A DNA stretch of 64,000 bases, from contig NZ_CP020465.1 of assembly GCF_002076895.1 (NCBI RefSeq), positions 992,001 to 1,056,000 on the forward strand, read 5' to 3'. This document shows positions 25,405-41,696 of the stretch, piece after piece. This stretch comes from Cognaticolwellia beringensis. Its GTDB lineage: Bacteria; Pseudomonadota; Gammaproteobacteria; Enterobacterales; Alteromonadaceae. The notes beneath the pieces are model-generated. The model did no database searches. It was not told where the DNA came from and saw nothing but the letters and a program-made list of their open reading frames with translations. Position numbers and translations under genes: made by a program. The number at the start of each line of letters is the position of its first letter. The stretch's first letter is position 1.

Positions 25405-25704
25405 ATTTCTCTCACCTACTCTATTGATAGGATGATTCATTATTAAGCTTTAGTGTAGTCACTTAACAGCTAATTGTGGATACTTTTCAGTAATATCCAC
25501 TCCTTACTTTTGATTAGTTATGGCTAAATAACCATCAATTTCAACAAATTAGAACGGTTTAATTAATGAAAAACTATTACTAAGTAATCTCAGTAATATG
25601 ACACGAATAATTCATTAGAAAATATATGGCAAAAAATTACATATTAATGTCAGCAATGCGCACAGAAAAGCCATAAAAACGAAATAGTAAAACTTCCGCT
25701 TTCA

Positions 25705-25844: not shown

Positions 25845-27011
25845 CTATGGCTTATTAGCCTTAATCGATTTTAATAGATTCAATTGACGAGTTTTGTAGG
25901 CGTTATTTTCAACATTTTCGACAATACTTTTTTTAATAACCAATCTTCTCATTTCTAGAGCTTTACCTAAGTCACCATTAGCTTCATAGCCATCAGCTAA
26001 ACTGTCATAGGCGTCAGCTCTATAAGGGTAATTTTTAACATTTTGCTCAAAAATCGCTATCGCTGTAGTAAAGTCTTTTTCCTTCAGGGCGTTATAAGCT
26101 ACTCTATTAATAGATCCATAACTTGGCTTTATTTCATAACCATAAATTTCTGATTGCTTTTTGTAGAACTCTTTGATCGCAGGAATACCTTTAGATATAA
26201 TCTCGTGACTCGGACGTAATGCAGCATATAGCTTTTGAAAAGCTAATGAGTGTCCGGCAAGTGCTGTTGTATTATGAGTTTCGGAGATATCTAAGTCCAA
26301 ATTAAATTTAAACCTTTTTGGATTATTTGAATTAAGCAATTTTGTATATCGCTCATATGAACTTAGCATATGACCACCTTCGCTCCCCATATTTACGTAC
26401 AGGTACATATTTAACTCGTCTGGTTGTTTTAAAAAGCTTTCGGCCTCTTTGAATATGATCTGTTTATGCCACCATAAACTGGGGCTAAATGCGAAGTGCG
26501 CTTGAAATAGCTCAGGTCTCGACTGCAATGCATAGATAGAAAGCAAGCCTCCTAAGGAGTGACCTGACACTATTTTGAAATTGTTTGCTCGATATTTTTT
26601 ATTAACATATGGAATAAGCTCCTTCTCAATGAAATCAAGAAAGTCATCTGCACCACCTGAAACTCCCCACTCGTTATAACTTTCATCATAACTAGGAGTG
26701 AAGTCCCTCGTGCGATGTGTATTCATTATTGCGATGACAATCATCTCTTGCGCCATATTAGATTGATTAAGTAGATCTAAAGTACCTATGGTATGAGCAA
26801 AGTTTCTTTGCCCGTCCAATAAATACAGGACGGGATAATCAAGCACTTTATTTTCTTCATAGTTATTCGGTAAATGTATTAACAAGTCTCGTTGCTCTGA
26901 TAAAACGGTTGAATACAAGCTGTCAGTTATTGAAGTGCCGCGTACACTGGCATTTACTTCTTCAGAGCTAATTAAAAACACAAAGAGTAGAGTTGCTATC
27001 TGTTTAAACAT
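25845..27011 (-). CDS. Secreted alpha/beta-hydrolase-fold esterase (esterase D/enterochelin-esterase-like) with C-terminal TPR
   Basis: A signal peptide (FKQIATLLFVFLISSEEVNA) is followed by an esterase domain (about 30-280): LPNNYEENKVLDYPVLYLLDGQ, nucleophile Ser in SGHSLGGLLS, and the catalytic His region SETHNT. The C-terminal about 80 residues hold tetratricopeptide-like helices (KDFTTAIAIFEQNVKNYPYRADAYDSLADGYEANGD). The start ATG at 27011 follows GGAAAC by 7 nt; a second ATG 12 nt upstream is possible. It is divergent from a ToxR/CadC-like regulator. The substrate is unknown. Confidence 0.85.
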   Translation of the reverse strand: MFKQIATLLFVFLISSEEVNASVRGTSITDSLYSTVLSEQRDLLIHLPNNYEENKVLDYPVLYLLDGQRNFAHTIGTLDLLNQSNMAQEMIVIAIMNTHRTRDFTPSYDESYNEWGVSGGADDFLDFIEKELIPYVNKKYRANNFKIVSGHSLGGLLSIYALQSRPELFQAHFAFSPSLWWHKQIIFKEAESFLKQPDELNMYLYVNMGSEGGHMLSSYERYTKLLNSNNPKRFKFNLDLDISETHNTTALAGHSLAFQKLYAALRPSHEIISKGIPAIKEFYKKQSEIYGYEIKPSYGSINRVAYNALKEKDFTTAIAIFEQNVKNYPYRADAYDSLADGYEANGDLGKALEMRRLVIKKSIVENVENNAYKTRQLNLLKSIKANKP

Positions 27012-27225
27012 AAAAGTTTCCATTATTTTATTAATATTAGTGAGTTAATGTGACGAATAATCATAGAAAAGTAATGATGATGTTGGGAAAAAAGGTGATG
27101 AAAAGGTGAATTTTAAGAATTAGTCGGCATATTAGAGAACTGAAGCTAATTCATTTTTCAATATAACTTTCTGTGTGATATCGTTTGAATGAGGTTGATT
27201 AATTTGAGGCTTATTACAGTAGGTT

Positions 27226-29385
27226 ATGATTAAATTTGGCGAGTATATACTCGATGTAGAACATTCACGTTTACTGAATGCTAGCGGTAATTCTGAAATA
27301 TTTATAGAGCCTAAAATATTTGAGTTACTACTGCTATTCATTGAACGCCCTAATGCTGTTATATCAAGGCAAGATATGCTTGATCAATTATGGGCAGGTT
27401 CTGTAGTTACCGATAATGCCATCAATAAATTAATAGGTAACCTTCGCAAGTTACTAGCTGATGATGCGAAAAAACCGAATTACATTCAAACTGTACCTAA
27501 ACGGGGATATCGTCTAGTTTGTAATGTTGAAACACTAGAAGTCACCGATTCAACCCAAAATGATTCAAACTTAATTAATACAAACATAGCCCAAATGACT
27601 TCACTTGGTTTTTTGGAAGAAAAGTGGAAAACTTATACAGGGATTTCTTTCGCTGTTATTTTGATCATTGTCTTAAGCATTTTCATAACACTTAAATCTA
27701 GTAACAACAGTTCCTCAAATAATAGCTACTCTGTAGCATTAACACGAGACCAAGGCGCAGAGCTTTCTCCTATAATGCACCCAAACAATACGCACTTATA
27801 TTATTTAAAAGAAAATGATGAACATACAGGTCTTGAGCTATGGATCAAAAATATTGACACCTCCGTCACTAAACAAGCAAAAGTAATAAGCAATATTAGT
27901 CAAATCATTTCTATCATTGAAGACAGTAATTCAAATCAAACTATCATCTTTTACCTTGATATATTGGCGAATGAATGCGGAGTTTATCAAGAAATTTTGC
28001 CAGCGCCAGAAGAGCTAAATCAAGTAAGCCAAGCCCCAAAAAAAATATTCGATTGCAGTGATAAGAGAGTGAAAGATATAGATTATCATGTTGGTCAGAA
28101 TGCCTTTTACTATGCTGCTCAACCTAAGAATTATTGGCCGAATCAAATTTATGCTTTTGATGTTGAAGCTGGAGAGCACAGGATTGTTACCCAATCACAA
28201 CCCAAGGGTTGGGGACACCATAGTCTTGATATATCCCCTAATGGCGAAAAACTTTTAGTAATGAGTACAGATAGTGATTACAAAACGCAGTTACTGTCGC
28301 TAAATTTGTTGGATAACAAAATTACAAAGGGGATCAAGTTTGAAAAGCCTGTGTACGAAGCTATATGGCATCATGACTCAGAGCAAGTGTATTACTTTGC
28401 TCCTTCACCTTCTCAGCGAATCATCAAAAGTGACATAAATGGCGAAAATTCTACTGAAGTTATCAATATATCAGAAGAAATATTGCCAAAGCTTTCAAGG
28501 TTGCCTGACGGTAAAAATTTACTTTTTAGTACAGAGAACAAAAACTATAACAATCGCTGGTTAATGTCTTTGAAAAACAGTGAACCTATTGATAATTCAT
28601 CAGTACTTGATGTTTATCCTGCACTATTTCACAACAGCGACCAGTACCTATTCGTTTCAAAACGAAGTGGCCGTATGCAGTTATATTTGGCAAACAACCA
28701 ATATCAGCAAGCCAAAGTAGTCACTAATTTACTTAACTCTCATTGGCTTAAATACGTTTCAATTTCTGAGGACGATAAACATGTTTTATTAAATGTTGAT
28801 AACAAGGTTTATCAAGTTCCCATAAGTGAACTAAACCCAAATGAACCTTTGACTGCATTTAAATCAGAACATTTGATTTATGAAAGTAAAAATCCAATCA
28901 TTTCTTTGGATTGGCTTACGAGCCAGGGTGTGGCTATTACTAGGGTAATTAATGGAAACCCTGAGTTGGTAGTAATCCAAGTTTCTAACAACAAAAAACT
29001 AAAATTTGACGGAAGATGGGCTTATGGCTTGATGGACAACGAGCAACTAGAACTTATATATTTTATTGAACAACAAAGTAACCTTTTGTACCAAGTAAGT
29101 TATTCGTCTTTCGAAGATAATCTTTCTAATAGTCAGCTAAGTTTTATCAATACGCAAATATCACTACCAACTGATTTTTATCATGTAAAAATAGATTCCA
29201 ATATCTTATATTACGTTAATGCCGAAAGAGGAAACGAATACCTTTACGCGGTGCCCTTAAATAAAAAACATGAAGGCAGTAAGCTATTATTGAATGACTT
29301 CTCAAGTTATGACGTAAGCAAAGGCAATATCATGGTTAGTGATGTTGAGAGCATAGAAGGTGATGTACATCGTACTATGTATTGA
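27226..29385 (+). CDS. ToxR/CadC-like membrane-bound winged-helix regulator with periplasmic beta-propeller-like domain
   Basis: Residues 1-105 are an OmpR-type DNA-binding winged helix (FIEPKIFELLLLFIERPNAV, then SVVTDNAINKLIGNLRKLLADD, TVPKRGYRLV). One TM (about 140-163, ISFAVILIIVLSIFITL) follows, then about 550 periplasmic residues with repeated WD40/TolB-like blades (for example SLDISPNGEKLLVMS, AIWHHDSEQVYYFAP, LSRLPDGKNLLFSTE). It would sense an envelope signal and act directly on DNA. It is divergent from the esterase gene across 214 bp, so that gene is the best candidate target. Confidence 0.88.
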   Translation: MIKFGEYILDVEHSRLLNASGNSEIFIEPKIFELLLLFIERPNAVISRQDMLDQLWAGSVVTDNAINKLIGNLRKLLADDAKKPNYIQTVPKRGYRLVCNVETLEVTDSTQNDSNLINTNIAQMTSLGFLEEKWKTYTGISFAVILIIVLSIFITLKSSNNSSSNNSYSVALTRDQGAELSPIMHPNNTHLYYLKENDEHTGLELWIKNIDTSVTKQAKVISNISQIISIIEDSNSNQTIIFYLDILANECGVYQEILPAPEELNQVSQAPKKIFDCSDKRVKDIDYHVGQNAFYYAAQPKNYWPNQIYAFDVEAGEHRIVTQSQPKGWGHHSLDISPNGEKLLVMSTDSDYKTQLLSLNLLDNKITKGIKFEKPVYEAIWHHDSEQVYYFAPSPSQRIIKSDINGENSTEVINISEEILPKLSRLPDGKNLLFSTENKNYNNRWLMSLKNSEPIDNSSVLDVYPALFHNSDQYLFVSKRSGRMQLYLANNQYQQAKVVTNLLNSHWLKYVSISEDDKHVLLNVDNKVYQVPISELNPNEPLTAFKSEHLIYESKNPIISLDWLTSQGVAITRVINGNPELVVIQVSNNKKLKFDGRWAYGLMDNEQLELIYFIEQQSNLLYQVSYSSFEDNLSNSQLSFINTQISLPTDFYHVKIDSNILYYVNAERGNEYLYAVPLNKKHEGSKLLLNDFSSYDVSKGNIMVSDVESIEGDVHRTMY

Positions 29386-29949
29386 ACGTCCGCTTTCGTA
29401 TCTTAGCCGACATAAATTGAGGTGAATATTAGCCACCATTTTTGACCGCTAAAGGCTCCAAATGGCCCTTTCGTATAATCAATCTTATGACTGCTTTATA
29501 GAGTTTCTTTATTTGTTAAGTGGCAACGCTGTATGTAATTGTATGGCCGTAGTTGATGCAATTGGGTGGTAAAGTCACACGTTATTTTCCAATTAGCTTT
29601 AATTTAGCACAACAAAGAGCACCCTATTAATGTTGAGTTAGCTGTCCTATTTTATTAGCATATTCAGGATGAAGCTAAAATGGGGGACGATTACCTTACT
29701 GTGAATAAGTATCTTGATTTCTATCAATCTTTTTTTGTTTGTCTGAGGCATTATCGTAACAACATAGTTGATTACCGTGCGTCGATTATTTTAAGACGAA
29801 TGCCTTTTTATATTCATTTGTACAATGGTATAGCTCACAAGTTTTTTGGAAATAAAAATGATTATTTACTCATTAAGCACAGTTTTTACTTACTTTTACT
29901 TATATTGTTGAGCTATAAAAATATACAACCTCTATCCTAAGTGAAGTAT
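29386..29949. other. Intergenic region after the membrane regulator
   Basis: About 560 bp. A short Tyr/Phe/Leu-rich open frame at 29680-29940 could encode 86 residues but has no recognisable features and is probably not a gene. Near 29390-29404 is a partial match to the sequence before the right 38-bp repeat. Confidence 0.35.
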
Positions 29950-31341
29950 TTAGAGCTTAATATGTTGTGTGAAAGTGTCGAGTAGTTCGTCTGTTCTGTG
30001 AGTAACAAACAGTAGGGTGGAGTTACTTTCTTTCATTATCATTTTAATGATCTTCAATATGCGATGACGATTAAATTCATCTAAACCTTGTGTAATTTCA
30101 TCAAGGATCAATAACAAAGGCGCTTTAATTAATGCTCTTACGATAAGTGCTAATCGTTGTTCACCAAAACTTAAATCGTTAAATAATGTTTTTTCTTTAT
30201 GATTTAAACCTACCTTTTTTAACCATTGCTCAGCGTATGTTATATGATATTTTTCGGGTTGCTGATACAGCCCAATAGAATCAAAAAAACCTGAAAGTAC
30301 TACCGTGAGTAAATCTGAGTTTACGCGATACTGGCGATGCAATTCAGGCGTAACTATGCCCATATCTTTTTTTAATTGCCAAATACTTTCTCCGCTACCT
30401 CGTTGATGTCCAAATAGTGTTAAATCGTTACTGTAGCATTGTGTACATTCGCCGGTTATTAAATGTAATAACGTTGATTTACCACTACCATTTCGGCCGG
30501 TAATTAAGGTATGTTGTTGTGGCTTTACACTTAAATTTAGCCCTTGAAAAACGGTTTTACTTTGATAACGAACGGTGCCATTAACTAATTTCACCAAATA
30601 ATCATGTGCATTGGACTTAGTCGCATAAAATTGTTCTGGCAGTGTAATTTTGTCATCATCGTTTTTAAAAAAATCATCGAGTTTGGCTTGTGTTTTAGCA
30701 CAATGTTGAGTCCCAATAACGTTAAAGTCCCCCTGTTTAATTACCGCTAATTGTTCACACCAATCAGGGATGTCGATGCGGTTACCCAATAGAAGAATAA
30801 GCGTGATATTGCTGTTTTTAATAATACCTTTAAAAAGTGTCGATAAAGTCTGGCTACTTTCTTGATCTAAACTGTCAAAAGGGTCTTCACAAATAATCAT
30901 TTTCTTTTCATGCAGAAGCGCTGAAAGTATCAGTAGTTTACGGCTTTCACCTGAACTTAATTGTCGGTAACCTGAGGTTAATAAATGTGCTAATCCTACG
31001 AGTTTAATAAGCGGGTCGTTTAATTTATCTTGAGGCAAAAACTCTTTTACGAGCGTGCCAAGATCCTGCTGATCTATAAAGTCGCTATTATCGATTTTTA
31101 ACTCGTGTTCATAAATTTTTTGTTGTGCTTCAAAGGAAATAATAGCGATGTCATTCGGCGCTGGTAACAGTATTTTTTCTACAGAAATTGGCGTTATTTC
31201 TCGCGATAGCAATTGAGCAAGTTCTTGTTTTCCTGAGTCATTAGTGCCTAGAATACACCAAGTGCTCGAATGACCAATTGGCCAACTCTCGACCATTAAC
31301 TTAGCATGACAATAATTTTTAATTTCAAAGGTATTCAACAT
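29950..31341 (-). CDS. Tandem ATP-binding cassette protein (ModF-like)
   Basis: One soluble polypeptide with two ABC modules and no membrane segment. Module 1 (about 1-225) has a degenerate Walker A GTNDSGKQE, signature LSSGESRKLL and Walker B MIICEDPFDSLD. Module 2 (about 250-460) has a canonical GRNGSGKSTLL, signature LSFGEQRLALIVRAL, Walker B LLILDEITQGLD and H-loop VTHR. Length and layout match E. coli ModF, a duplicated ATPase near molybdate genes. No molybdate permease is nearby here, so the role is open. Start at 31341 (MLNTFEIKN) or 31365; neither has a strong ribosome site. Confidence 0.75.
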   Translation of the reverse strand: MLNTFEIKNYCHAKLMVESWPIGHSSTWCILGTNDSGKQELAQLLSREITPISVEKILLPAPNDIAIISFEAQQKIYEHELKIDNSDFIDQQDLGTLVKEFLPQDKLNDPLIKLVGLAHLLTSGYRQLSSGESRKLLILSALLHEKKMIICEDPFDSLDQESSQTLSTLFKGIIKNSNITLILLLGNRIDIPDWCEQLAVIKQGDFNVIGTQHCAKTQAKLDDFFKNDDDKITLPEQFYATKSNAHDYLVKLVNGTVRYQSKTVFQGLNLSVKPQQHTLITGRNGSGKSTLLHLITGECTQCYSNDLTLFGHQRGSGESIWQLKKDMGIVTPELHRQYRVNSDLLTVVLSGFFDSIGLYQQPEKYHITYAEQWLKKVGLNHKEKTLFNDLSFGEQRLALIVRALIKAPLLLILDEITQGLDEFNRHRILKIIKMIMKESNSTLLFVTHRTDELLDTFTQHIKL

Positions 31342-31540
31342 AACCAACTTTTTGTAAAACAGCATACGCCATTATTTTCTACCACTTTACGCTTTGCAAG
31401 CCTAATCCTTAATATTGCTTGATTTCATGTGTTAGTTATTACTCGTTCAGCCATTACTTAATGCATTTTAAAAAGCTCATGAATCGTCAAAAAGAGCACA
31501 ATTATAATTGTATGTGATTTACTGAGATTTTATATGCCAT

Positions 31541-31577
31541 AAAAAACCCCTAATAATAAATATTAGGGGTTTGTTTT
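31541..31577. terminator. Rho-independent terminator after dnaK
   Basis: Hairpin AACCCCTAATA / TATTAGGGGTT with AT-rich loop, A6 on the left and a T-rich tail on the right. It is about 50 nt beyond the dnaK stop and can act in both directions. Confidence 0.88.
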
Positions 31578-31626
31578 CAGCTTTTAACTTTCAGCCTTTA
31601 ACTTATAGCTTCAAGTAGCTTCAAGC

Positions 31627-33528
31627 TTAACCATTACTGACATCTTCAAACTCAGCATCAATAACATCTTCGTTACTAGCTTCGTCATTGGCAGCATTTC
31701 CTTGTGGTTGCTCTGCTTGTTGTGACTGCGCTTGTTGAGCTTGCATCATATTAGTGTAAGCCTCTTGTAATGCTTTTTGTCGCATTTCAATTGCGCCTTT
31801 ATCATCGCCATTAACCGCCATTTTCAGTTGCTCGATTAAGGTTTTAAGCTCGCCTTGTTGATCATCGCTTAACGTGTTCATCGAGGTTTGTACGGTATGA
31901 ATTAATTGATCAGCTTGGTTACGTTGCTCCACTAATTCACGCTTTTTCTTGTCTTCAGTCGCGTGCATTTCTGCGTCGTTTACCATGCGATTAACTTCAT
32001 CTTCCGTTAAACCACTTGATGCGGTAATTTTAATGCTTTGCTCCTTACCGGTTGCTTTGTCTTTCGCGGTAACATTTAAAATACCATCAGCATCGATATC
32101 AAAAGTAACATCAACTTGCACTGAACCGCGTGGGCCAGGGTTAATATCCGTTAAGTTAAATTGACCTAACGATTTATTATCTGTTGCCATTTCACGCTGG
32201 CCTTGTAACACATGAACCGTAACCGCCGCTTGATTATCTTCAGCCGTAGAGAAAGTTTCAGAAGCACGTGTTGGTATAGTGGTATTTTTATCTATAAGCT
32301 TGGTCATTACACCACCTAAGGTTTCAATACCCAGTGATAACGGCGTTACATCAAGTAATAGCACATCACCAACTGTTCCTGACAACACACCCGCTTGAAT
32401 CGCTGCACCCATGGCAACCGCTTCATCAGGGTTTACATCTTTACGTGGTTCTTTGCCAAAAAAAGCTTTAACGGCTTCTTGCACTTTTGGCATGCGTGAT
32501 TGACCACCGACTAAAATTACTTCGTTAATATCGCTTTTGCTTAAACCCGCATCTTTTAATGCTTGCTCACAGGGGGCGATGGTGCTCTTTACTAAGTCAT
32601 CAACTAGTGACTCTAATTTGGCGCGAGTAACTTGTATCTTTAAATGTTTAGGGCCACTAGCGTCAGCAGTAACGTAAGGTAAATTCACGTCGGTTTGTAG
32701 TGCTGATGACAACTCGATCTTCGCTTTTTCAGCCGCTTCTTTAATGCGCTGTAGGGCTAAAGGATCTTGTTTGATATCAATACCACTTTCTTTTTTGAAT
32801 TCATCAGCAAGGTAATTTATTAAGCGTAAATCAAAATCTTCACCACCTAAAAAGGTATCACCATTGGTTGCCAACACTTCAAATTGCTTTTCACCGTCCA
32901 CATTGGCTATTTCGATAATAGAGACATCGAAAGTACCACCACCTAAGTCATAAACGACCACTTTTTGGTCAGCTTTACTGTTTTTATCAACGCCATAAGC
33001 TAATGCTGCGGCTGTTGGCTCGTTAATAATACGTTTAACATTAAGCCCAGCAATTTTACCTGCGTCTTTTGTTGCTTGGCGCTGTGAGTCATTAAAGTAG
33101 GCAGGTACGGTAATAACCGCGTCTGTTACTGTTTCACCTAAATAAGCTTCAGCATCTTTTTTCAATTTACGTAAAACTTGTGCTGATACTTCTTGCGGCG
33201 ATAAAGCTTTGCCGTTTACTTCAACCCAAGCGTCACCGTTACTTGCTTTAACGATTTTATAAGGTGCAAGTTTAATATCTTTTTGTACTTCTTTATCATC
33301 AAATTTACGACCAATTAAACGTTTAATCGCAAATAATGTATTTTTAGAGTTTGTCACCGCTTGTCTTTTTGCTGGTTGACCCGCTAATGTTTCATTGTTG
33401 GCATATGCAACAATTGATGGTGTGGTACGGCTACCTTCCGCATTTTCAATAATTTTTGCAACGCCGCCTTCCATCACTGCGACACATGAGTTTGTTGTAC
33501 CTAAATCAATACCAATAGTCTTAGACAT
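31627..33528 (-). CDS. dnaK: Hsp70 chaperone DnaK
   Basis: Full-length DnaK of 633 residues: ATPase domain opening [21 protein letters not shown], phosphate loop [29 protein letters not shown], linker [17 protein letters not shown], substrate-binding domain, helical lid and a C-terminal DAEFEDV tail like that binding co-chaperones. The ATG at 33528 is chosen because AGGTG lies 6 nt upstream; an in-frame GTG at 33537 overlaps that site. Unlike the usual grpE-dnaK-dnaJ layout it stands alone, with cbpA 2.8 kb away, so it may be a second DnaK. A Crp-type site and -10 lie upstream. Confidence 0.95.
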
Positions 33529-33658
33529 AATAATCACCTATTCTTTTAAAACTTCATAAAAAGGTCTGATGCTTTATGGCTATATTCCAGTAAGCAATTT
33601 GACCGTATAAACAAACTTGTATTAACGGTTTAACGCAAGCTGTTTGGTTAGTGGGGCT

Positions 33659-33664
33659 ATAATA
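33659..33664 (-). promoter_or_regulatory. Predicted -10 element of dnaK
   Basis: On the minus strand this reads TATTAT. It starts 21 nt after the TGTCA-N6-TGACA palindrome, placing that palindrome near -41.5 of the inferred start point (about 33652). The leader would be about 124 nt. No good -35 is present, as expected for an activator-dependent promoter. Confidence 0.55.
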
Positions 33665-33685
33665 CGGAAGGTGGGGAAATGCTTC

Positions 33686-33701
33686 TGTCACAAATATGAC
33701 A
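33686..33701. promoter_or_regulatory. Crp/Fnr-type operator TGTCA-N6-TGACA in the dnaK / regulator intergenic region
   Basis: Palindrome TGTCACAAATATGACA, extended by C and G to 18 bp (33685-33702). The 5-6-5 geometry is that of Crp/Fnr family sites but with C at the fourth position (CRP: TGTGA). It lies between divergent dnaK and a Crp/Fnr-type gene. The same motif recurs upstream of cbpA. Confidence 0.7.
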
Positions 33702-33879
33702 GTTGTGATGATTTTTTACTTTTTATTCAACTTAATATATTTTAAATATAAAATTCAATGAATTACTTGAGGTGTTCGCTGACATTAAGCAAATGAAAAA
33801 TAAGATTAGTTTTTGCTATATTGCAACAACGGGGTAGAATAAAGCCATACACTTAACTATGGTTTAAATCATTGTACTT

Positions 33880-34644
33880 ATGAATAAAGATGTTACCCAT
33901 TTGCCTAAAAAAGCCAGTCCAGTATTGGTAAAGCAAGCTAATATTTTTGCAGATTTACCGGCAAAATTAATTGAGGATTTTCAACAAGAATTTCAGCTTG
34001 ATGAATGGCGCAAAGGTGACTACTTTGATTCAAACTTACTAACACAACGTTTTTTTGTGGTACTTGATGGCAGCATAGAAATTAAACAAAGTAATCCCGA
34101 AACAGGCAGAGAAGCGACATTAGATATGCTTTATGCAGGTGATTGTTTTGACTTGATGGTGTTATTAGACGATCAACCCCATGACGTGATTGTTTCCCCT
34201 TTGACTACGGCTAAATTGCTGTCGGTTAAACTGGCTACCATGCGACACTGGTTGTGGACCTATCCAGAGTTTAACCAACAATTTATGCCTTATTTGGCAA
34301 AGAAAATGCGTGAAAAAGAGCAACAGGCAAGTGATTTAGTTTTACATGATGTCACTACACGCTTAAGCCGTATTATTTTAGAACATATTAATAAAATTAA
34401 GTTTTATTCCGGTAGTAAAGCCGAAGAACATCAGCATCATTTAGTAAATGGTTTAAACGATGAAACCTTAGCGCGAATGACAGGCTCGGTAAGGCAAGTG
34501 ATTAATAAACAATTACAGCATTGGAAAAAAGCAGGTACCATCGATAAAAAACGCAATCAATTGATTGTTAAAGACCTAGAAGCATTGGAAAAAGCTGCGA
34601 AATATACCGAAAGCTTAGCTAACGTGCCTATGGTTAAACCTTAG
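33880..34644 (+). CDS. Crp/Fnr-family transcriptional regulator
   Basis: A cyclic-nucleotide-binding fold covers about 20-145 and a winged helix-turn-helix about 155-235. The Fnr iron-sulfur cysteines are absent, and the CRP phosphate-binding cassette (Arg-Ala after FGE) is not recognisable, so the effector is unknown. The recognition helix reads GSVRQVINKQL; aligned with CRP, Arg205 equals Arg180, Gln206 equals Glu181 and Lys210 equals Arg185. That substitution fits a site whose fourth base is changed, as seen in the two TGTCA-N6-TGACA palindromes nearby. It is divergent from dnaK and probably also autoregulated. Confidence 0.88.
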   Translation: MNKDVTHLPKKASPVLVKQANIFADLPAKLIEDFQQEFQLDEWRKGDYFDSNLLTQRFFVVLDGSIEIKQSNPETGREATLDMLYAGDCFDLMVLLDDQPHDVIVSPLTTAKLLSVKLATMRHWLWTYPEFNQQFMPYLAKKMREKEQQASDLVLHDVTTRLSRIILEHINKIKFYSGSKAEEHQHHLVNGLNDETLARMTGSVRQVINKQLQHWKKAGTIDKKRNQLIVKDLEALEKAAKYTESLANVPMVKP

Positions 34645-34673
34645 TAGAACATCCAGATCTTACTTAACCATTA

Positions 34674-34691
34674 TGTAACGGTTTTGTTACA
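34674..34691. promoter_or_regulatory. Palindrome TGTAAC-N6-GTTACA
   Basis: Perfect 6-bp arms around GGTTTT, between the Crp/Fnr-type gene and the pilin-like gene. It could be an operator (its form is close to a TyrR box, TGTAAA-N6-TTTACA) or a weak terminator of the regulator gene. Confidence 0.35.
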
Positions 34692-34796
34692 AAAGGTAAA
34701 GTATCCCTTCGCACTTGTACGTACAGCAACCCTATTTTTTAAAATATAAGGATGTTAAATTACACCTAAATATTGCTTTTGGGTGAAATTCTTCAT

Positions 34797-35264
34797 ATGA
34801 AGAAACAGTCGGGTTTCACGTTAATAGAATTAGTTATTGTTATTATTATTTTGGGGATTTTAGCCGCTACGGCTTTACCCAAATTTATAAATTTACAAGG
34901 TGATGCGCGACAAGCCGTAATGAATGGGCTTAAGTCATCGTTAGAAACAGCAGCTACTTTTACTTACACTAAAGCGATTATTGAAGGGGTGGGGAATTCC
35001 TTTGATGAAACGCTGTCATCAGGCATTAGAATAAGATATGGCTATCCCTTTGCAACCCAAGAAAACTTAAAGGCAGTACTCAATTTCACTGAAGACGACT
35101 TTAAACTTACGGGAACTGATCCCGAGATAATTTTTACCCTTACCAATGATACTGAAGGTTTGACAACAAGTGAAATTGAAAGTGCTGGCGTCTGCAAACT
35201 GACTTATACCCGAGCAGATCAAGGCGAACGACCAGCGATCACTATTTCAGGTTGCACCGATTAA
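34797..35264 (+). CDS. Type IV pilin-like protein with prepilin leader (MshA-like)
   Basis: Short charged leader MKKQSG followed by FTLIELVIVIIILGILAATALPKF, the prepilin peptidase motif (cut after Gly6, Glu at +5) and the N-terminal pilin helix. The globular part of about 125 residues has Cys in VCKLTY and SGCTD, forming a likely C-terminal disulfide loop as in MSHA-type pilins. The ATG at 34797 gives a normal leader; an in-frame TTG at 34773 would add eight unneeded residues. No pilus assembly genes are adjacent, so it is an orphan pilin or pseudopilin. Confidence 0.85.
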   Translation: MKKQSGFTLIELVIVIIILGILAATALPKFINLQGDARQAVMNGLKSSLETAATFTYTKAIIEGVGNSFDETLSSGIRIRYGYPFATQENLKAVLNFTEDDFKLTGTDPEIIFTLTNDTEGLTTSEIESAGVCKLTYTRADQGERPAITISGCTD

Positions 35265-35309
35265 CTATGAGGCAATGCCTAAGTGCTATTAATGGGCTAA
35301 GAGAATTAG

Positions 35310-35336
35310 CGCCATACTGAAAATCTCAGTATGGCG
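35310..35336. terminator. Strong hairpin between convergent pilin-like and cbpA genes
   Basis: Perfect 11-bp stem CGCCATACTGA / TCAGTATGGCG with loop 'aaatc'. It lies 45 nt after the pilin-like stop and 23 nt beyond the cbpA stop. It lacks a T-run but its position suggests a shared transcription end. Confidence 0.6.
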
Positions 35337-35359
35337 AATAAATGAAGCATCTACTTTTT

Positions 35360-36319
35360 CTATGCTTCATCCTCAATATTTTTGTCGCTATTCGTTGCTA
35401 GCGCTTTTAAAGACTGATAAAGCGCTTCTTCTTCGGTTGACAAACTTTTTGGAAAAACAATTTTTAATTTCACAAAAAAGTCTCCGGCAACTTTACAAGG
35501 CAGTCCTCGGCCTTTTAAACGCATTTTACTGCCACTACTGATTAACTTAGGCAAGCTTAAATCAATATGTCCTGTAGGTGTTGGTACTTTTACTTTTTCA
35601 CCTAAAGCCGCTTGCCATGGGCTAATACTAAGTTCTGTTGTTATATCAGCACCTTCAATGGTATATAGTGAGTCTGGATTAAATCCTACTTCTAGATATA
35701 AATCGCCATTAGGTGCGCCCCCAACGCCTGCTTGTCCTTGCTTTTTCAAACGTATTTTTTGACCCGGCTTAATGCCTTTTGGAATACTGACCTTTAATGT
35801 ACGATCTTTAGTTTGTGTTCTTCCTTGTTGATCAACCACTTGGTCTTGTAGTGTGAAATTACGGGTTGCGCCGGTATAAGCATCTTGCAAATCAATCAAT
35901 ATTTTTGCGTTGCTATCTTGCCCTTGCATAGACCGACGACCGCGCGCTGCATGTTGACCACCACCGAAGCCGCCCCCAAATAATGATTCAAAAAAATCAC
36001 TAAAGTCGCCTTGACCGCCAGCACCCGCATTAAAGTTACCGTTGCCTTGTTGGTATTGATCTTGCCAACTAGGTGGTGGTGTAAAGCCTGATTGGCCTGC
36101 TTTCCAATTGCTACCCAGTTGATCATAGGCTGCGCGCTTTTCTTTATCACGTAGCACTTCATAGGCTTCGTTTATGTCTTTAAAACGAGTTTCGGCATCT
36201 TTTTCTTTACTGACGTCTGGATGAAATTTTCGCGCTAATTTCCGATAAGATGTTTTAATTTCATCTTGGGACGCGGTTTTATCGACGGCCATAATTTTAT
36301 AATAATCTTTATAATTCAC
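35360..36319 (-). CDS. cbpA: DnaJ-class co-chaperone (curved DNA-binding protein A type)
   Basis: J-domain at the N-terminus (DYYKIMAVDKTASQDEIKTSYRKLARKFHPDVSKEKD, with HPD), a Gly/Phe-rich linker (about 75-125, GGGFGGGQHAARG) and two beta-sandwich substrate-binding domains, with no zinc-finger: the CbpA/type II DnaJ layout. It should stimulate the ATPase of DnaK. The GTG at 36319 is preferred because AGGAGG lies 3 nt upstream; an in-frame GTG at 36334 has no ribosome site. A Crp-type palindrome and -10 upstream match those of dnaK, which suggests co-regulation. Confidence 0.9.
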   Translation of the reverse strand: MNYKDYYKIMAVDKTASQDEIKTSYRKLARKFHPDVSKEKDAETRFKDINEAYEVLRDKEKRAAYDQLGSNWKAGQSGFTPPPSWQDQYQQGNGNFNAGAGGQGDFSDFFESLFGGGFGGGQHAARGRRSMQGQDSNAKILIDLQDAYTGATRNFTLQDQVVDQQGRTQTKDRTLKVSIPKGIKPGQKIRLKKQGQAGVGGAPNGDLYLEVGFNPDSLYTIEGADITTELSISPWQAALGEKVKVPTPTGHIDLSLPKLISSGSKMRLKGRGLPCKVAGDFFVKLKIVFPKSLSTEEEALYQSLKALATNSDKNIEDEA

Positions 36320-36447
36320 ACTGACCTCCTGCACATTTTCTGCAGATAAATTTTTGAACTGAATTTTGCTAGATAAAGCCGATGATGATTAACGCAAGGT
36401 AAAAGTCACCAACGAATAATTTTTGGTAATCCTATTTGATAATTCCT

Positions 36448-36453
36448 AGTATA
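36448..36453 (-). promoter_or_regulatory. Predicted -10 element of cbpA
   Basis: On the minus strand this reads TATACT. It starts exactly 21 nt after the palindrome at 36475-36490, the same geometry as for dnaK. The inferred leader is about 122 nt. Confidence 0.55.
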
Positions 36454-36474
36454 AATACATAGAAAAATAATCAA

Positions 36475-36490
36475 TGTCAGCAATATGACA
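36475..36490. promoter_or_regulatory. Crp/Fnr-type operator TGTCA-N6-TGACA in the cbpA / GNAT intergenic region
   Basis: Palindrome TGTCAGCAATATGACA, the same class as at 33686-33701. On the plus strand a weaker -10-like TACACT (36512-36517) also starts 21 nt past the site, so the rightward GNAT gene may be driven by the same site. Confidence 0.7.
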
Positions 36491-36579
36491 CTTTACGTTA
36501 ATTATGACATGTACACTTTGAAATTTCGTGCTATTTTCAGTAGAAATAAAATAAATCAAATTGATCTTAAAGGAAAAAT

Positions 36580-36855
36580 ATGTCGCATACACTTATACAT
36601 AACGTAGCAGCATCTAAATATGAATATCACATCGAAAGTCATATTGCGTATATCACTTACGATGATCAAAATGGCCATATGCATTTAACGCATACTGTCG
36701 TTCCTGAAGCACTTGCTGGCAAAGGCTTAGCTAAAACACTTTTAGAGGCGGTACTTGCACAGATTAAAAAAGATAATAAACAAGCCGTCGCACAGTGTTC
36801 ATATATTGTTAAGTATTTAGAAAAAAATCCAGAAGCAAAGCACTTTTTTGTTTAA
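36580..36855 (+). CDS. Small GNAT-like N-acetyltransferase (YjdJ/NATD1 type)
   Basis: A 91-residue protein with the acetyl-CoA-binding part of the GNAT fold: ITYDDQNGHMHLTHTVVPEALAGKGLAKTLLEAVLAQIKK and the terminal CSYIVKYLEKNPEAKHFF typical of this minimal family. Its substrate is unknown. A strong AAAGGAAAA ribosome site precedes the ATG. It is divergent from cbpA over a shared Crp/Fnr-type palindrome. Confidence 0.85.
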   Translation: MSHTLIHNVAASKYEYHIESHIAYITYDDQNGHMHLTHTVVPEALAGKGLAKTLLEAVLAQIKKDNKQAVAQCSYIVKYLEKNPEAKHFFV

Positions 36856-37004
36856 TTATTTCGTTAGATTAATAATGAAATTATATGTTTCTCAGCAATT
36901 TCGATTACAGCGTACATCTGAGCTGCGACGTTATAGTATCCGCCAATACGGTGTTTTCTTATCTGTAAATCTATACTATAGTTACAAGTAAAATGGGAAT
37001 ATAT

Positions 37005-37883
37005 ATGAGGGTTTTCTTACTGATTTTTATCGTGTTTTCACTGTGTTCTTGTCAGCCACAGTCTCATGATCATACCTTGAGAATATCGGCAACTAACTGG
37101 CTAGGCTACACTCCACTATTCTATGCGAAAGAAAAAGGCTCACTTGATTTAATCGATATTAAGCTTATTAATGTTGTTTCGCTAAGTGAAAATATGTACC
37201 TCTTCAAAGCAGGTAATTCTGATGCCTTTTGTGGCACTCAGTACGAACTCTCAATTTTGAAAACTCAGCTGCCAAACGTAGTGCCCATCATGTTATTTGA
37301 CCGTTCAAATGGTGGCGATATGGTCATGAGTAATCATTCAATTACTGAGTTGCAGAATAGTACCAGTGAAGTTGATGCTTACTTAGAGATGGATTCTATA
37401 AACTTCACGGTGTTGAATGACTTTATTCGCAAATTTAACATCGATGAAAGTAGGATTAACTATATTGATAGAGACCAAAGTGCTATTTCCTCGCTGACAA
37501 ATAATGAACCGAATAAGCAGATATTAATTGTTACTTATATGCCTTACGACTCTAAATTAAAGAATAACGGTTTTAAAGAGATTATATCAACTAAGAATGG
37601 TCTTGATTTATTGGTAATAGATGCGCTTTTTACCCGTACAGAAGAGCTTATTGCACACAAAGCACAATTTATTGCCCTTAAAAAGTTAGTTGATGAAGCC
37701 ATTGCCTCATTACACTCTGATCCTAAAGAGTTTTATGAAACCATAAAACCCTATTTTACTGGCTTGACCTATGAAGATTTTGTAACCGAACTGCATGACA
37801 TTGAATGGATTAATAAAGAACTTGAAGATGCATTAGAGCTGCGTTTGCAAGAGTCAGATTTTTCAACTAAAGAGCTCATATGA
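37005..37883 (+). CDS. Lipoprotein substrate-binding protein (NMT1/THI5-like)
   Basis: Signal peptide MRVFLLIFIVFSLCSC with the lipobox L-C-S-C, then a type 2 periplasmic binding fold (LRISATNWLGYTPLFYAKEKGSLDL, a typical opening of the NMT1/SsuA-like family). No ABC permease or ATPase is nearby. Instead its stop overlaps the start of a membrane GGDEF-EAL gene (ATGA), so it probably serves as a ligand sensor for that enzyme. The start at 37005 is chosen for its GGGA at good spacing; 36993 is an alternative. Confidence 0.85.
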   Translation: MRVFLLIFIVFSLCSCQPQSHDHTLRISATNWLGYTPLFYAKEKGSLDLIDIKLINVVSLSENMYLFKAGNSDAFCGTQYELSILKTQLPNVVPIMLFDRSNGGDMVMSNHSITELQNSTSEVDAYLEMDSINFTVLNDFIRKFNIDESRINYIDRDQSAISSLTNNEPNKQILIVTYMPYDSKLKNNGFKEIISTKNGLDLLVIDALFTRTEELIAHKAQFIALKKLVDEAIASLHSDPKEFYETIKPYFTGLTYEDFVTELHDIEWINKELEDALELRLQESDFSTKELI

Positions 37884-39877
37884 ATTTAACGATTAAAAAA
37901 GTTGCCTTTGGTTTAATCTTTTTCTTACTTACCGGTATGTATATTATATTTGCATATTATTATTTTTCTCAGCGTGATATTACCGCCAAAATCATTGTGA
38001 CAAGTATAAAGAACGATCTTTCTGAACTGTCCTATGTTTTATCAAAGCAAATAAAAAAAGAGCCCATTTCTTCTGCTCGACCATTGCTTGATAGAAAAGC
38101 GGCTAATAATAAATATTTGAGTGCTATTGCCATTTTTAAAGATGACGAACTCGTCATGACAACCGAACACAAATACTCAAAAATACCAACAGCAAGTGAC
38201 TTGTATTTTGCTCCGCATAAAAGTGACTTCACGTTTCTGAATGACAAAAGTGCATTACAGGGCAATATTCACTATTACCAGGGGAAGTTAATAAAAAATT
38301 ACGCACTGGTTTTCTATTTTGATAATGAATATATCAAACATAACTTTACGCAAGCGAAGCGTGATTTTATTCTGTTTTTTATCCTTATACCCATTATTTT
38401 TGTGGCTATAATTTGGCTGGTTATTGGCCGACTAGTCGCTCTGCCGCTAGAAACTTTACGCCAATATGCTTACTATCATTCAAATATTCCCAAGCCGTTT
38501 ATAATTCGGGAAATCGAATATATACGTGCTTCTATGGTGCAAACATTTAGTCGACTAGACCAGGAAAAAAAGGAACTTTATAACTTAGCTAGAACAGATT
38601 CACTTAGTGGACTTGCCAACCGAAATTACTTACAGGAAAGAGTGGAACAAATTATAGAGGTGAGTAACAGAGAGCAAAAAGAATTTGCACTATTGTTTCT
38701 AGACCTAGATCACTTTAAGTCAGTTAATGACTCTTTAGGGCATGATGTTGGTGATGAATTATTAAAAAGTATTGCTCAAGCAATACAAAAAATTCTACGT
38801 ATTAATGACGTTGTAGCACGTATCGGTGGTGATGAGTTTGTTATTGTACTAACGCACTATAAAGACGATGTTGAATTATATGAAATCATCGATCGAATTC
38901 AAACTCAACTCATGAAAGCATGGTTAATTAATACTTTTACCATTCAAATTACCAGTAGTATCGGGATCACTATTTACCCTAAAGATGGCGATGATCTTGT
39001 CTCATTAATGAAGAATGCCGATATTGCCATGTATGAAGCGAAAGCACGCGGCCGGAGAGGGTATCACTTTTTTACAGAGTCGCTTAATGTCAAAACTCAG
39101 GAATATATAGCGCTGACAAATGCAATGCGTGAAGCGCTGAAAAACGATCAGTACGAGCTCTATTACCAGCCACAAAATGATGTGAAAACAGGTGTTATAA
39201 CTGGCGCTGAAGCACTTATTCGCTGGAAAGGTTCTAACGACGTGTTTATTCCTCCTAATATTTTTATTCCTATTGCTGAACAGAATGGCTTTATTATTGA
39301 GCTGGGTGATTGGGTACTGGAAACAGCGATTAAACAACTGCACCTTTGGGAAGATAATGATTATCAGCTTAGAATGTCAATTAATGTTGCTGCTCAACAA
39401 ATTCTACAACGAGGTTTTGTTTCTCATCTCAAGTTTTTATTAGACACCTATAAAGTAAGCGCTAACAAAGTTTTGCTAGAGATTACTGAGTCTGTATTTT
39501 TAAATGACAGCAAAGCTATACATAAAACGTTTTCGGCCATTAAAGCCCTAGGCGTTAAAATATCACTCGACGATTTTGGTACAGGCTATTCTTCGTTATC
39601 GTATTTAAAAACCTTTCCTATCGATGTGCTCAAAATCGACAAGGCATTTTTGGACGACTACGATACTCAAGAAGGTGCAATATTTATTGAGACCATTGTT
39701 AATATGGCTCAAACGCTAAAAATAAGTGTAGTGGCTGAAGGAGTTGAAACACGAGAGCAAGTTAACTACTTATCATCATTAAACTGTGGATATTACCAAG
39801 GCTATGTGTGTAGTCCTCCCGTTGAAATCAATGCTTTTGATCGACTGTTTAATGAAGCAGTTGTATTACAAGTGTAG
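37880..39877 (+). CDS. Membrane GGDEF-EAL protein (diguanylate cyclase/phosphodiesterase)
   Basis: TM1 (about 8-28), a periplasmic sensor of about 135 residues, TM2 (about 160-185), a linker, GGDEF domain (about 235-400) with intact GGDEF at 316-320 (ARIGGDEFVIVL), and EAL domain (about 410-660) with EAL at 444-446 (GAEALIRW) and DDFGTGYSSLSYLK. Both active sites look intact, so it could make or break cyclic di-GMP. The 4-nt overlap with the binding-protein gene suggests that the lipoprotein controls it across the membrane. Confidence 0.93.
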   Translation: MNLTIKKVAFGLIFFLLTGMYIIFAYYYFSQRDITAKIIVTSIKNDLSELSYVLSKQIKKEPISSARPLLDRKAANNKYLSAIAIFKDDELVMTTEHKYSKIPTASDLYFAPHKSDFTFLNDKSALQGNIHYYQGKLIKNYALVFYFDNEYIKHNFTQAKRDFILFFILIPIIFVAIIWLVIGRLVALPLETLRQYAYYHSNIPKPFIIREIEYIRASMVQTFSRLDQEKKELYNLARTDSLSGLANRNYLQERVEQIIEVSNREQKEFALLFLDLDHFKSVNDSLGHDVGDELLKSIAQAIQKILRINDVVARIGGDEFVIVLTHYKDDVELYEIIDRIQTQLMKAWLINTFTIQITSSIGITIYPKDGDDLVSLMKNADIAMYEAKARGRRGYHFFTESLNVKTQEYIALTNAMREALKNDQYELYYQPQNDVKTGVITGAEALIRWKGSNDVFIPPNIFIPIAEQNGFIIELGDWVLETAIKQLHLWEDNDYQLRMSINVAAQQILQRGFVSHLKFLLDTYKVSANKVLLEITESVFLNDSKAIHKTFSAIKALGVKISLDDFGTGYSSLSYLKTFPIDVLKIDKAFLDDYDTQEGAIFIETIVNMAQTLKISVVAEGVETREQVNYLSSLNCGYYQGYVCSPPVEINAFDRLFNEAVVLQV

Positions 39878-40034
39878 GAGATTTTAGTTAATATTTGCTC
39901 GATTCAACTTATATGGCTTGTAGATTGTATTAACTTTGATAATTGGACTTTTAAAGCTATTAATAACTTCTGAATATTGTTGATTAGATATTATAGAGGT
40001 GCCGAAATATAGCGGCTTAAACATGAAGCAAGGT

Positions 40035-40481
40035 TTACGGTTTAAATTTAACTGATTTAAAAATCCGTTTACCTTGATCTAACTCAATTGTATTTTTAAA
40101 CTCGATTAACATCGAAAAGCTCGTATTACCGGACACATTAGCAATGGTTAGTGCCATTTTATTTTGCTGTATTAATATTCTACCGTGATGGCCGTCAATT
40201 ATTATAAGCTCAGAGGTGGCACTTGATAATTCACTAAATGTAGAAGCATATCGGCCTAAATCATAAGTTAATATTAAGTTTTTATTTTCTAATTGACCCG
40301 CAATTGAATCTATAGCTTGTACGTTGGCCAGGATTAAGCTAACTGGGTGTTCGAAGCAAAATTGATTATTTGGACAATGCTCAAGCCATTTATCAAGCTG
40401 CTTTGTATCATGACTATTTACTGGGTTTATAAAAAATAAAGTAAAAAAACCGACGATTAATATAGATTTACCAAGTGGCAT
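40035..40481 (-). CDS. Hypothetical secreted protein
   Basis: I do not recognise a family. The 148-residue protein has a signal peptide (GKSILIVGFFTLFFINPVNS), then a CPNNQFCFEHP segment whose two Cys probably pair, and a beta-rich remainder. It lies 53 nt downstream of the PEP-CTERM metalloprotease gene in the same direction and may be co-transcribed with it. Confidence 0.6.
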   Translation of the reverse strand: MPLGKSILIVGFFTLFFINPVNSHDTKQLDKWLEHCPNNQFCFEHPVSLILANVQAIDSIAGQLENKNLILTYDLGRYASTFSELSSATSELIIIDGHHGRILIQQNKMALTIANVSGNTSFSMLIEFKNTIELDQGKRIFKSVKFKP

Positions 40482-40534
40482 AGGTGCTCCATGGACTAAA
40501 AGCCTACGATAATTAAGAATAGGTTTTAATTTTT

Positions 40535-41218
40535 TTATGAATTTTCAAACGTTAGTTTTACTGTTTTTCTAATTAAAAACCCCAAAGGCAGCAGTAATAA
40601 AACTAATGTGCTTGGCTCTGGAACAGGTGCACTAGGAGTAGCGACAATCAATACTGGATTAATGTCAATCCAATACTCTTTATCAGTAGCCTGTCCATTA
40701 TTTTTAACTAAATAGCTGGTATGAATAGTGTTGACTTCAGCCAAAGTCAACGTGGTATTGTTATTTAGAGAACCATTCATTAGGAATTGACCAGATCGGT
40801 GAGGTAATCCTAAATTATGACCTAATTCATGGGCTAATAACTCTCCTCCGAAACTGCCCGCAGCGAAAGAAGATTCTACGACAAAGTCATTTCCTGGGAA
40901 TTCTCCGCAGCCTACTATATTAACGTTTATTATTCCGCATGCGCTGATAGTGTCTATAAAGTAAAAATTTACCACATCAAATGCACCAACAAGTTGGTTA
41001 AATAGCTGAAAAATTTCTGCGTCACTTGATATATCTAGCAGGGTTGGGAGAATTAATTCTGTAGCTTTGCCTATACGTATGTCGATTGGTCTGTCGTCAA
41101 AACTCGTTTGAGAAAATATACGGTCAAGCTCATTTTCATTTGTGGTAATGAAGCCTGCTTTAGCTTGAGTTACAACTAACAATCCAAGGGCAAAGAGTAG
41201 CGAATTTAATACTTTCAA
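40535..41218 (-). CDS. PEP-CTERM-anchored zinc metalloprotease
   Basis: A signal peptide (NSLLFALGLLVVTQAKA) leads into a short metzincin-like protease domain with the zinc motif HELGHNLGLPH (HExxHxxGxxH). The C-terminus has a PEP-CTERM sorting signal: VPEPST, a hydrophobic helix (LVLLLLPLGFLI) and a basic tail (RKTVK). It would be exported and processed by an exosortase, which is not encoded here. The usual Met-turn downstream of the zinc motif may be SGQFLMNGSL. The domain is small, about 170 residues. Confidence 0.85.
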   Translation of the reverse strand: MKVLNSLLFALGLLVVTQAKAGFITTNENELDRIFSQTSFDDRPIDIRIGKATELILPTLLDISSDAEIFQLFNQLVGAFDVVNFYFIDTISACGIINVNIVGCGEFPGNDFVVESSFAAGSFGGELLAHELGHNLGLPHRSGQFLMNGSLNNNTTLTLAEVNTIHTSYLVKNNGQATDKEYWIDINPVLIVATPSAPVPEPSTLVLLLLPLGFLIRKTVKLTFENS

Positions 41219-41696
41219 AGAAGTTCCTTAATAATTGTAGAATGGTGAGGCGCTTTTTATCATTCACTTGTAACTTTTAATTATAGGTAATATAAGACAT
41301 ATTGCGCGTGATTTTTGCTGAATTAGAACGATAGACCAGCTTTGGAGAAGGTAAGCTGGTTGAAAATATAATTAAATAAGGTAGTAAGTTGCTAGTTTAC
41401 CTTCCTGTTGAACTCAAGTTATAAGGTCTTTCTAAGGCAAATTTTAATTTTAGTACACAAGTAGCATCAGCATTAAATCATACAATAATGCACTGTTTAT
41501 AAAATAATCAATTAAAAGTAAAGTTTCGGTGGGGCTCAGGGCGTTATTGCTGTATAATGCGCGGCTTTATTATGGTGGCTGAGTTGGTGTTAATTGATAC
41601 ATCTGGCTTGGTTACAGCAATCTCAGTATTAACTATCACTTTAAAGCTATCCGTTAGCACTTGTGAGTTTAGTTAACGGAAAATAGGAATACCTCT
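41219..41696. other. Intergenic region before ybiT
   Basis: About 480 bp of AT-rich divergent promoter sequence. A GGGGCTCAGGGC stretch near 41530 and TATAAT at 41553-41558 suggest a ybiT promoter. No gene is seen. Confidence 0.4.

Follow-up and report, generated by a model that had tools for sequence, protein, structure and literature searches.

We propose that, in Cognaticolwellia beringensis, a regulator of the Crp/Fnr type serves as class II activator of a sigma-32-independent Hsp70 system, made up of a second DnaK (dnaK2) and a CbpA-like J protein (cbpA2). Sequence comparison, covering conserved sites, fixed spacing, co-occurrence, congruent descent and the linkage of an R-Q recognition helix to a palindrome, leads us to give this proposal a probability of about 0.8. 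The system lies within a 64-kb stretch of the genome (GCF_002076895.1, NZ_CP020465.1, 992,001-1,056,000 forward), hereafter the window, and the positions below count within it. Lengths are in nucleotides (nt) or amino acids (aa).

31627 to 33528, minus strand: dnaK2, the second DnaK; likely start ATG at 33528; NCBIfam DnaK equivalogs above cut-off
33529 to 33652, minus strand: dnaK2 leader, about 124 nt, with partial sequence conservation
33659 to 33664, minus strand: putative -10 hexamer TATTAT of the dnaK2 promoter, 21 nt past the operator
33686 to 33701, minus strand: putative dnaK2 operator, TGTCATATTTGTGACA in the minus-strand reading, centre at about -41.5
33880 to 34644, plus strand: Crp/Fnr-type regulator gene, 254 aa, recognition helix G-S-V-R-Q-V-I-N-K, single cysteine C89
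35360 to 36319, minus strand: cbpA2, a J protein with DnaJ and DnaJ_C domains; likely start GTG at 36319, with AGGAGG before it
36448 to 36453, minus strand: putative -10 hexamer TATACT of the cbpA2 promoter, 21 nt past the operator
36475 to 36490, minus strand: putative cbpA2 operator, TGTCATATTGCTGACA in the minus-strand reading, centre at about -41.5
36580 to 36855, plus strand: GNAT-type gene, divergent from cbpA2

A preliminary description of this DNA had placed one TGTCA-N6-TGACA palindrome in each of the divergent regions ahead of a dnaK and a cbpA-like gene, and these are the only two exact copies in the window. The -10-like hexamers that it had noted 21 nt past each palindrome are likewise present (TATTAT at 33659-33664 and TATACT at 36448-36453) and, if they are true -10s, this spacing centres the palindromes at -41.5. 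Its leaders of about 120-125 nt are right provided that translation of dnaK begins at ATG 33528 and that of the cbpA-like gene at GTG 36319, both start codons having been assigned by reading the sequence. The gene that it had called Crp/Fnr-type, between dnaK and cbpA, exceeds the Pfam cut-offs for HTH_Crp_2 (PF13545, 38.4 bits against 27) and cNMP_binding (PF00027, 29.2 against 27.5). Across the 4.66-Mb genome the exact palindrome occurs four times, and the reversed pattern used as a control twice; the remaining two palindromes fall inside reading frames of 459 and 101 aa. Matches with up to two mismatches are at chance level in the window, with 27 found against 29.7 expected.

The number of dnaK copies, proposed at the outset as a check, identifies the window gene (636 aa) as a second one. 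Another DnaK, 69% identical, is encoded by a 653-aa frame at 3061625, and a 44% relative lies at 588664. The window copy was therefore named dnaK2. It scores as DnaK in its own right, with 986 bits for NF001413 (cut-off 648) and 920.8 for TIGR02350 (cut-off 822.55).

Lack of conservation of the palindrome at -41.5 in orthologous regions had been named among the outcomes that would refute the preliminary description, which came through this trial. We compared 33 distinct loci, comprising 29 from named genomes (10 of them already in the genome set), the window, L040, L041 and L048; the named genomes belong to Colwellia, Cognaticolwellia, Pseudocolwellia, Paraglaciecola and unclassified Alteromonadaceae. 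An exact palindrome precedes dnaK2 in 32 of the 33. The sole exception, L138, comes from an uncultured Colwellia metagenome-assembled genome in which a truncated dnaK2 and a truncated regulator are fused end to end, either by deletion or by assembly error. In all 32 promoters the hexamer exactly 21 nt past the palindrome fits TANNAT, a fit shared by fewer than five of them at every other offset between 0 and 44. The site also stays with dnaK2 where the regulator does not: in L043, L049, L052 and L137 a distance of 1.2-3.1 kb separates the starts of the regulator and dnaK2 genes, and the palindrome remains at dnaK2. For cbpA2, 16 distinct genes were available, namely those within the fetched loci and two located elsewhere in G069 and G130. 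Fourteen of these are preceded by an exact palindrome; TANNNT follows at +21 in 10 of them and at +20 in the other four.

The sequences thus fit the pattern of a class II Crp/Fnr promoter, with a dyad near -41.5, a -10 and no good -35. Such a site covers the -35 region, where repressors also act, and a bound regulator might instead block RNA polymerase at -41.5 until its signal releases it. We consider repression of this kind unlikely. The -35 slot reads CAGAAG in 26 of the 32 dnaK2 promoters, the window included, so that these promoters look activator-dependent, and the spacing of 20-21 nt, held in distant genera too, is what class II activation demands.

The regulator and dnaK2 also occur together. 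At 67-100% identity, the regulator is present in 14 of 147 genomes of the family (window genome included); at an E-value of 1e-3 matches extend to 50 of the 147, with rows outside the 14 at 30% identity or less. Two DnaK matches at E 1e-200 are found in the same 14 genomes and in no others, and regulator and dnaK2 are hence both present in 14 and both absent from 133. The dnaK2 orthologs are 84-100% identical, and the main DnaKs 66-74% among the matches listed. Among 394 sampled genomes of the order, the regulator is found at E 1e-20 in three, the window genome and two of the same family.

Descent tells a similar story. The DnaK2 proteins form one clade (support 100/100), whose sister is the second DnaK of G669, a distant and fragmented genome of the class (94% complete), rather than the family's main DnaKs. 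A search of 274 genomes of the class at E 1e-264 gave two DnaK matches only in the window genome and in G669. Regulators and DnaK2 proteins branch in the same order, G669 first, then G008, G057 and the rest (support of the G669 fork among the regulators 98/73), and regulator and dnaK2 therefore appear to have been inherited or moved together.

Genes for DnaK and DnaJ-type proteins are usually heat-shock genes, and dnaK2 could in principle be an ordinary sigma-32 duplicate beside which the palindromes are incidental. This is barely credible, given that the best sigma-32-like match within 400 bp before dnaK2 has 3-5 mismatches in 14 of 14 genomes, which places dnaK2 outside the sigma-32 set, and that the palindrome has been kept at all dnaK2 loci save L138. 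Main dnaK genes have a CTTGAA-N11/16-CCCCAT-like match with 0-2 mismatches in 16 of 17 rows over the same distance (row L094, read in the wrong orientation, is discounted, and the match in L091 stands in an unusual place). None of the main-dnaK rows contains an exact palindrome, L091 having a site with one mismatch.

Relatives of the regulator in the wider class repeat the linkage between protein and site. Searched with the regulator profile at E 1e-30, 369 genomes of the class include 20 further ones with a match, and neighbourhoods were examined for 27 of the 28 profile matches outside the window genome. Where the recognition helix carries R-Q, 8 of 11 loci together hold 15 exact palindromes, against 0.12 expected from Markov resampling; no other dyad of the 5-N6-5 form comes near TGTCA in number (15; next 3). 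The 11 loci of regulators with R-V instead hold no exact palindrome. When the palindrome is required to be followed after 20-21 nt by TANNNT, this composite pattern gives 23 matches in seven of nine class-level genomes and none in the reversed control. It gives 33 in all 14 regulator genomes of the family, with six in the reversed control (composite totals over the 147 family genomes were summed by hand from a per-genome table). In G669, where the second dnaK diverges from a clpB, both genes have a palindrome of their own, followed 21 nt later by a hexamer (TAAAGT, TACGAT).

Several observations weigh against our proposal. The cbpA2 gene of L129 has no site, and that of L115 has only one with two mismatches (TATGCT at +21). 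The division into R-Q and R-V was drawn after the loci had been inspected. Three R-Q loci, L226, L227 and L231, are without an exact palindrome, although L226 and L227 have one-mismatch sites (that of L226 with TATTCT at +21), and G660 and G796 have no composite match. More distant Crp proteins of the family with R-Q (the L024-L039 set) have no exact palindrome in their 3.5-kb loci, and consequently R-Q alone does not decide. Finally, the composite pattern is found 61 times in 42 of the 133 regulator-less family genomes (28 in the reversed control). Identifying targets therefore takes conservation and gene linkage; the pattern by itself is not enough.

The occurrence of motif and -10 in those 42 genomes leaves room for a different transcription factor at the palindromes, with the Crp/Fnr gene a linked bystander. 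We judge a bystander very unlikely, in view of the joint presence and absence over 147 genomes, the contrast between R-Q and R-V, and the recurrence of the arrangement at homologous regulators in other families. Site conservation, joint presence and absence, and the recurring linkage of R-Q to the palindrome all support the earlier suggestion that the regulator may activate a separate Hsp70 system.

The regulator itself is a member of the Crp/Fnr superfamily that is neither CRP nor FNR. It scores 34.9 bits against the CRP equivalog, far from the cut-off of 266. FNR holds a [4Fe-4S] cluster with a set of cysteines, and the 254-aa regulator has only one, C89, which is invariant in 19 rows of alignment A1 and absent from the G669 and G660 proteins. 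Its predicted fold (mean confidence, pLDDT, of 80 from 85 alignment rows; an earlier model from 19 similar rows, at pLDDT 49, was not used) matches CRP structures with a probability of 1.00. The nearest are Mycobacterium tuberculosis CRP, GlxR and Clr, and among solved structures those of M. tuberculosis CRP come closest to the regulator in sequence as well as in predicted fold. Where M. tuberculosis CRP reads G-E-L-S-I-F-D-P-G-P-R-T, the window regulator reads D-L-M-V-L-L-D-D-Q-P-H-D, with G-E and R-T replaced by D-L and H-D. The G-E and R-T/S residues of CRP contact cyclic AMP (cAMP). Most of the wider family carries the motif G-D-x-x-D...L-L-D-x-x-P-H, and cAMP seems unlikely to be the signal.

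The identity of cbpA2 needs some qualification. Its product is a CbpA-like J protein, as first described, with DnaJ and DnaJ_C domains, an HPD motif and no Pfam match to a zinc-finger domain, but it falls below the NCBI cut-off for CbpA (NF007618, 258.3 against 403 bits). It is 53-54% identical to CbpA-like proteins near class-level regulators (G660, G796, G587) and 31-36% identical to two DnaJ proteins. The DnaK/CbpA pairing likewise stood in part. At E 1e-30, cbpA2 is present in 11 of the 14 regulator genomes and in neither of two regulator-less genomes of the same genus, but it is missing from three of the 14, so that the constant partner of the regulator is dnaK2.

Control of dnaK2 might also reside mainly in its leader of about 120 nt, as an RNA thermometer or stability hairpin, with the activator setting only the basal level. 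The leader (33529-33652) is partly conserved as ACTAACCAAACAGC...GGTTGTTT...GGTC...GACC, and many copies fold into two hairpins. RNAalifold finds seven pairs, three with two-sided change in at least one sequence. However, the consensus energy is -0.87 kcal/mol, the fold z-scores of six sequences range from -0.2 to -3.9, the best 7-bp 5' stem of 26 leaders is equalled in 30 to 100 of 100 shuffles, and an Rfam search up to E 1 gives nothing at the leader. A conserved structure is suggestive by eye and weak by test, and we hold leader control to be decidedly unlikely.

For the activator that we favour, we infer binding, activation rather than repression, the partnership of DnaK2 with the J protein, the transcription starts and the type of signal. 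With its signal present, a regulator dimer would bind TGTCA-N6-TGACA at about -41.5 of both promoters. These appear to have a -10 but no recognisable -35, and class II contact with RNA polymerase would start transcription of dnaK2 and cbpA2. DnaK2 and the J protein would then act beside the main DnaK-DnaJ, whose dnaK promoter seems to be of the sigma-32 type. In the three genomes that lack cbpA2, DnaK2 would use another J protein.

The 14 regulator genomes contain 63 exact palindromes (43 in the reversed control), of which 25 are the dnaK2 and cbpA2 sites. The other 38 comprise 29 within mechanical open reading frames, two of which (in G143 and G041) also match the composite pattern, and nine that are apparently intergenic. 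Just one of the nine has the -10 spacing, and further regulon members in these family genomes were not adopted on this basis. That site, L157 (G057:C275), lies before a YfdX gene, with TATACT 20 nt on; the gene, in a basal genome of the clade, is a possible third target. Within the window, a one-mismatch site at 25588 is followed at +21 by TATGGC in one direction and by TTAATT on the opposite strand. We also considered whether the operators serve the divergent GNAT gene or the regulator gene. Opposite-strand TANNNT hexamers at 20-21 nt are present in G000 (GNAT side), in G091 and G046 (regulator side) and in G069 and G130 (opposite cbpA2). Because they are not conserved, such control is not claimed. 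A gene with a pilin-type N-terminus sits between the regulator gene and cbpA2. In two regulator-less genomes, paired good TGTCAC-N4-GTGACA sites with -10-like hexamers are found at G087:C1:3779208 and 3792865-3792933, and at G030:C1:2517447 and 2524692; these pairs are perhaps served by another regulator of this type.

The composite-pattern sites of the class-level genomes precede a broader set of genes. By Pfam, the stress genes behind them encode DnaK2, Hsp20, ClpB, a CbpA-like J protein, FtsH (388 nt on), YfdX (three) and DUF308 proteins (two), the last being the type to which HdeD belongs. Others encode a P-type ATPase, an H+-pyrophosphatase, an amino acid permease, a class I aldolase and a PBP-type protein, alongside two genes without a family and one sub-threshold YflT match (a few doubtful or cut frames were left out of the scan). 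The Hsp20 genes of G660 have a one-mismatch palindrome upstream, with TATTCT at +21, and a CbpA-like gene stands beside or near the regulator in G660, G796 and G587.

With confidence only somewhat better than even, we suggest that R-Q regulators form a Crp/Fnr family widespread in Gammaproteobacteria, running a sigma-32-independent proteostasis and energy-stress regulon from TGTCA-N6-TGACA at -41.5 (DnaK2, ClpB, Hsp20, CbpA, FtsH, YfdX, DUF308/HdeD-like proteins and proton pumps). Such a regulon would mirror, on the chromosome, the genes carried by heat-resistance islands. Colwellia and Paraglaciecola would keep mainly its Hsp70 branch, and it would answer to a new, non-cAMP signal bound in the conserved G-D-x-x-D...L-L-D-x-x-P-H pocket.

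Two further observations concern these relatives. In L197 (G669:C28), a second R-Q regulator stands amid genes that by eye resemble those for phosphoenolpyruvate synthase, class I aldolase, universal stress and MBL-fold proteins. This locus holds three palindromes and is possibly a sister regulon of energy metabolism. The R-V relatives (L232-L235, L237-L238, L240-L242, L244-L245) include several tandem pairs, and some lie near glucan-phosphorylase-like and permease-like genes, again by eye.

Chaperone genes of Gammaproteobacteria are regarded as sigma-32 (and stationary-phase) genes. Escherichia coli CRP acts at class II promoters through a 16-bp dyad with an N6 spacer, centred at about -41.5. 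The window regulator shares with it the superfamily and, in its putative operators, the dyad and the position, and differs in the half-site, TGTCA as opposed to TGTGA. CooA also has R-Q in its recognition helix. This carbon monoxide sensor is reported to use TGTC/GACA half-sites, with the consensus TGTCGGCNNGCCGACA, and to control carbon monoxide dehydrogenase genes (PMC545781). It thus shares a half-site with the putative operators of the window regulator, at low overall similarity of the proteins (30.6 bits). RedB, another Crp/Fnr protein, is described with a non-palindromic site (PMC9603854).

That a Crp-family protein can control dnaK is already known from M. tuberculosis. There, according to PMC3938503, which also quotes the CRP site as TGTGA-N6-TCACA, cAMP-CRP binds directly 286-301 bp upstream of the dnaK start codon, cAMP strengthens this binding, added cAMP raises dnaK, grpE and dnaJ transcripts, and a SigH site also serves the operon. 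Both systems have a Crp-family protein with a site, here a putative one, upstream of dnaK. Unlike that CRP, the regulator described here is gene-linked, is without the cAMP-contact pattern, and would sit at -41.5 and serve a second dnaK. DnaK duplicates under separate regulation are known as well, for example MxDnaK2 of Myxococcus (PMC11019930), which dnaK2 resembles as a second DnaK whose control appears unlike that of the heat-shock copy. The main text of that source does not contain the words Fnr, Colwellia, Alteromonadales or Gammaproteobacteria, and the main text of a survey of the Crp/Fnr DNA-binding domain (PMC12531629) has neither TGTC nor CooA. In the open-access literature, TGTCA-N6-TGACA was not found in print in the spellings searched, nor was a paper on such a regulon, in some queries among the top-ranked results only.

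The predicted targets of the related regulators share gene families (Hsp20, Clp disaggregase, FtsH, YfdX, HdeD-like) with the transmissible locus of stress tolerance (tLST), described as a mobile island carrying hsp20, clpK/clpG, ftsH, yfdX and hdeD, whose expression control a review calls not fully elucidated (both PMC8290217). None of the tLST gene set occurs among the open reading frames of window positions 26000-43000, as named by Pfam/NCBIfam or by eye. A shared operator on mobile heat-resistance islands was considered and set aside for the two plasmid regions examined. Neither an exact TGTCA-N6-TGACA nor a gene annotated as Crp/Fnr is present on an Enterobacter plasmid island (L269). The Sphingomonas koreensis plasmid region L270 (871-15546), which is alphaproteobacterial, carries genes for PsiE, Hsp20, YfdX, ClpB and thioredoxin together with one annotated as Crp/Fnr and a neighbouring helix-turn-helix gene, but this Crp/Fnr protein is not matched by the regulator profile, and there is no palindrome.

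What appears to be new is a dedicated, probably non-cAMP Crp/Fnr activator of a second Hsp70 system, with an apparent wider stress regulon in its relatives. A dedicated activator with its own Hsp70 pair would give some bacteria a second folding machine that can be called upon by a different signal. In being small, the regulon would also offer a clean test bed, with one regulator, two promoters and many natural variants. The stress-gene set of yfdX, hsp20, ftsH and HdeD-like genes is known mainly from mobile heat-resistance islands, and its link to this regulator family in relatives may provide a first handle on how these genes could be regulated from the chromosome.

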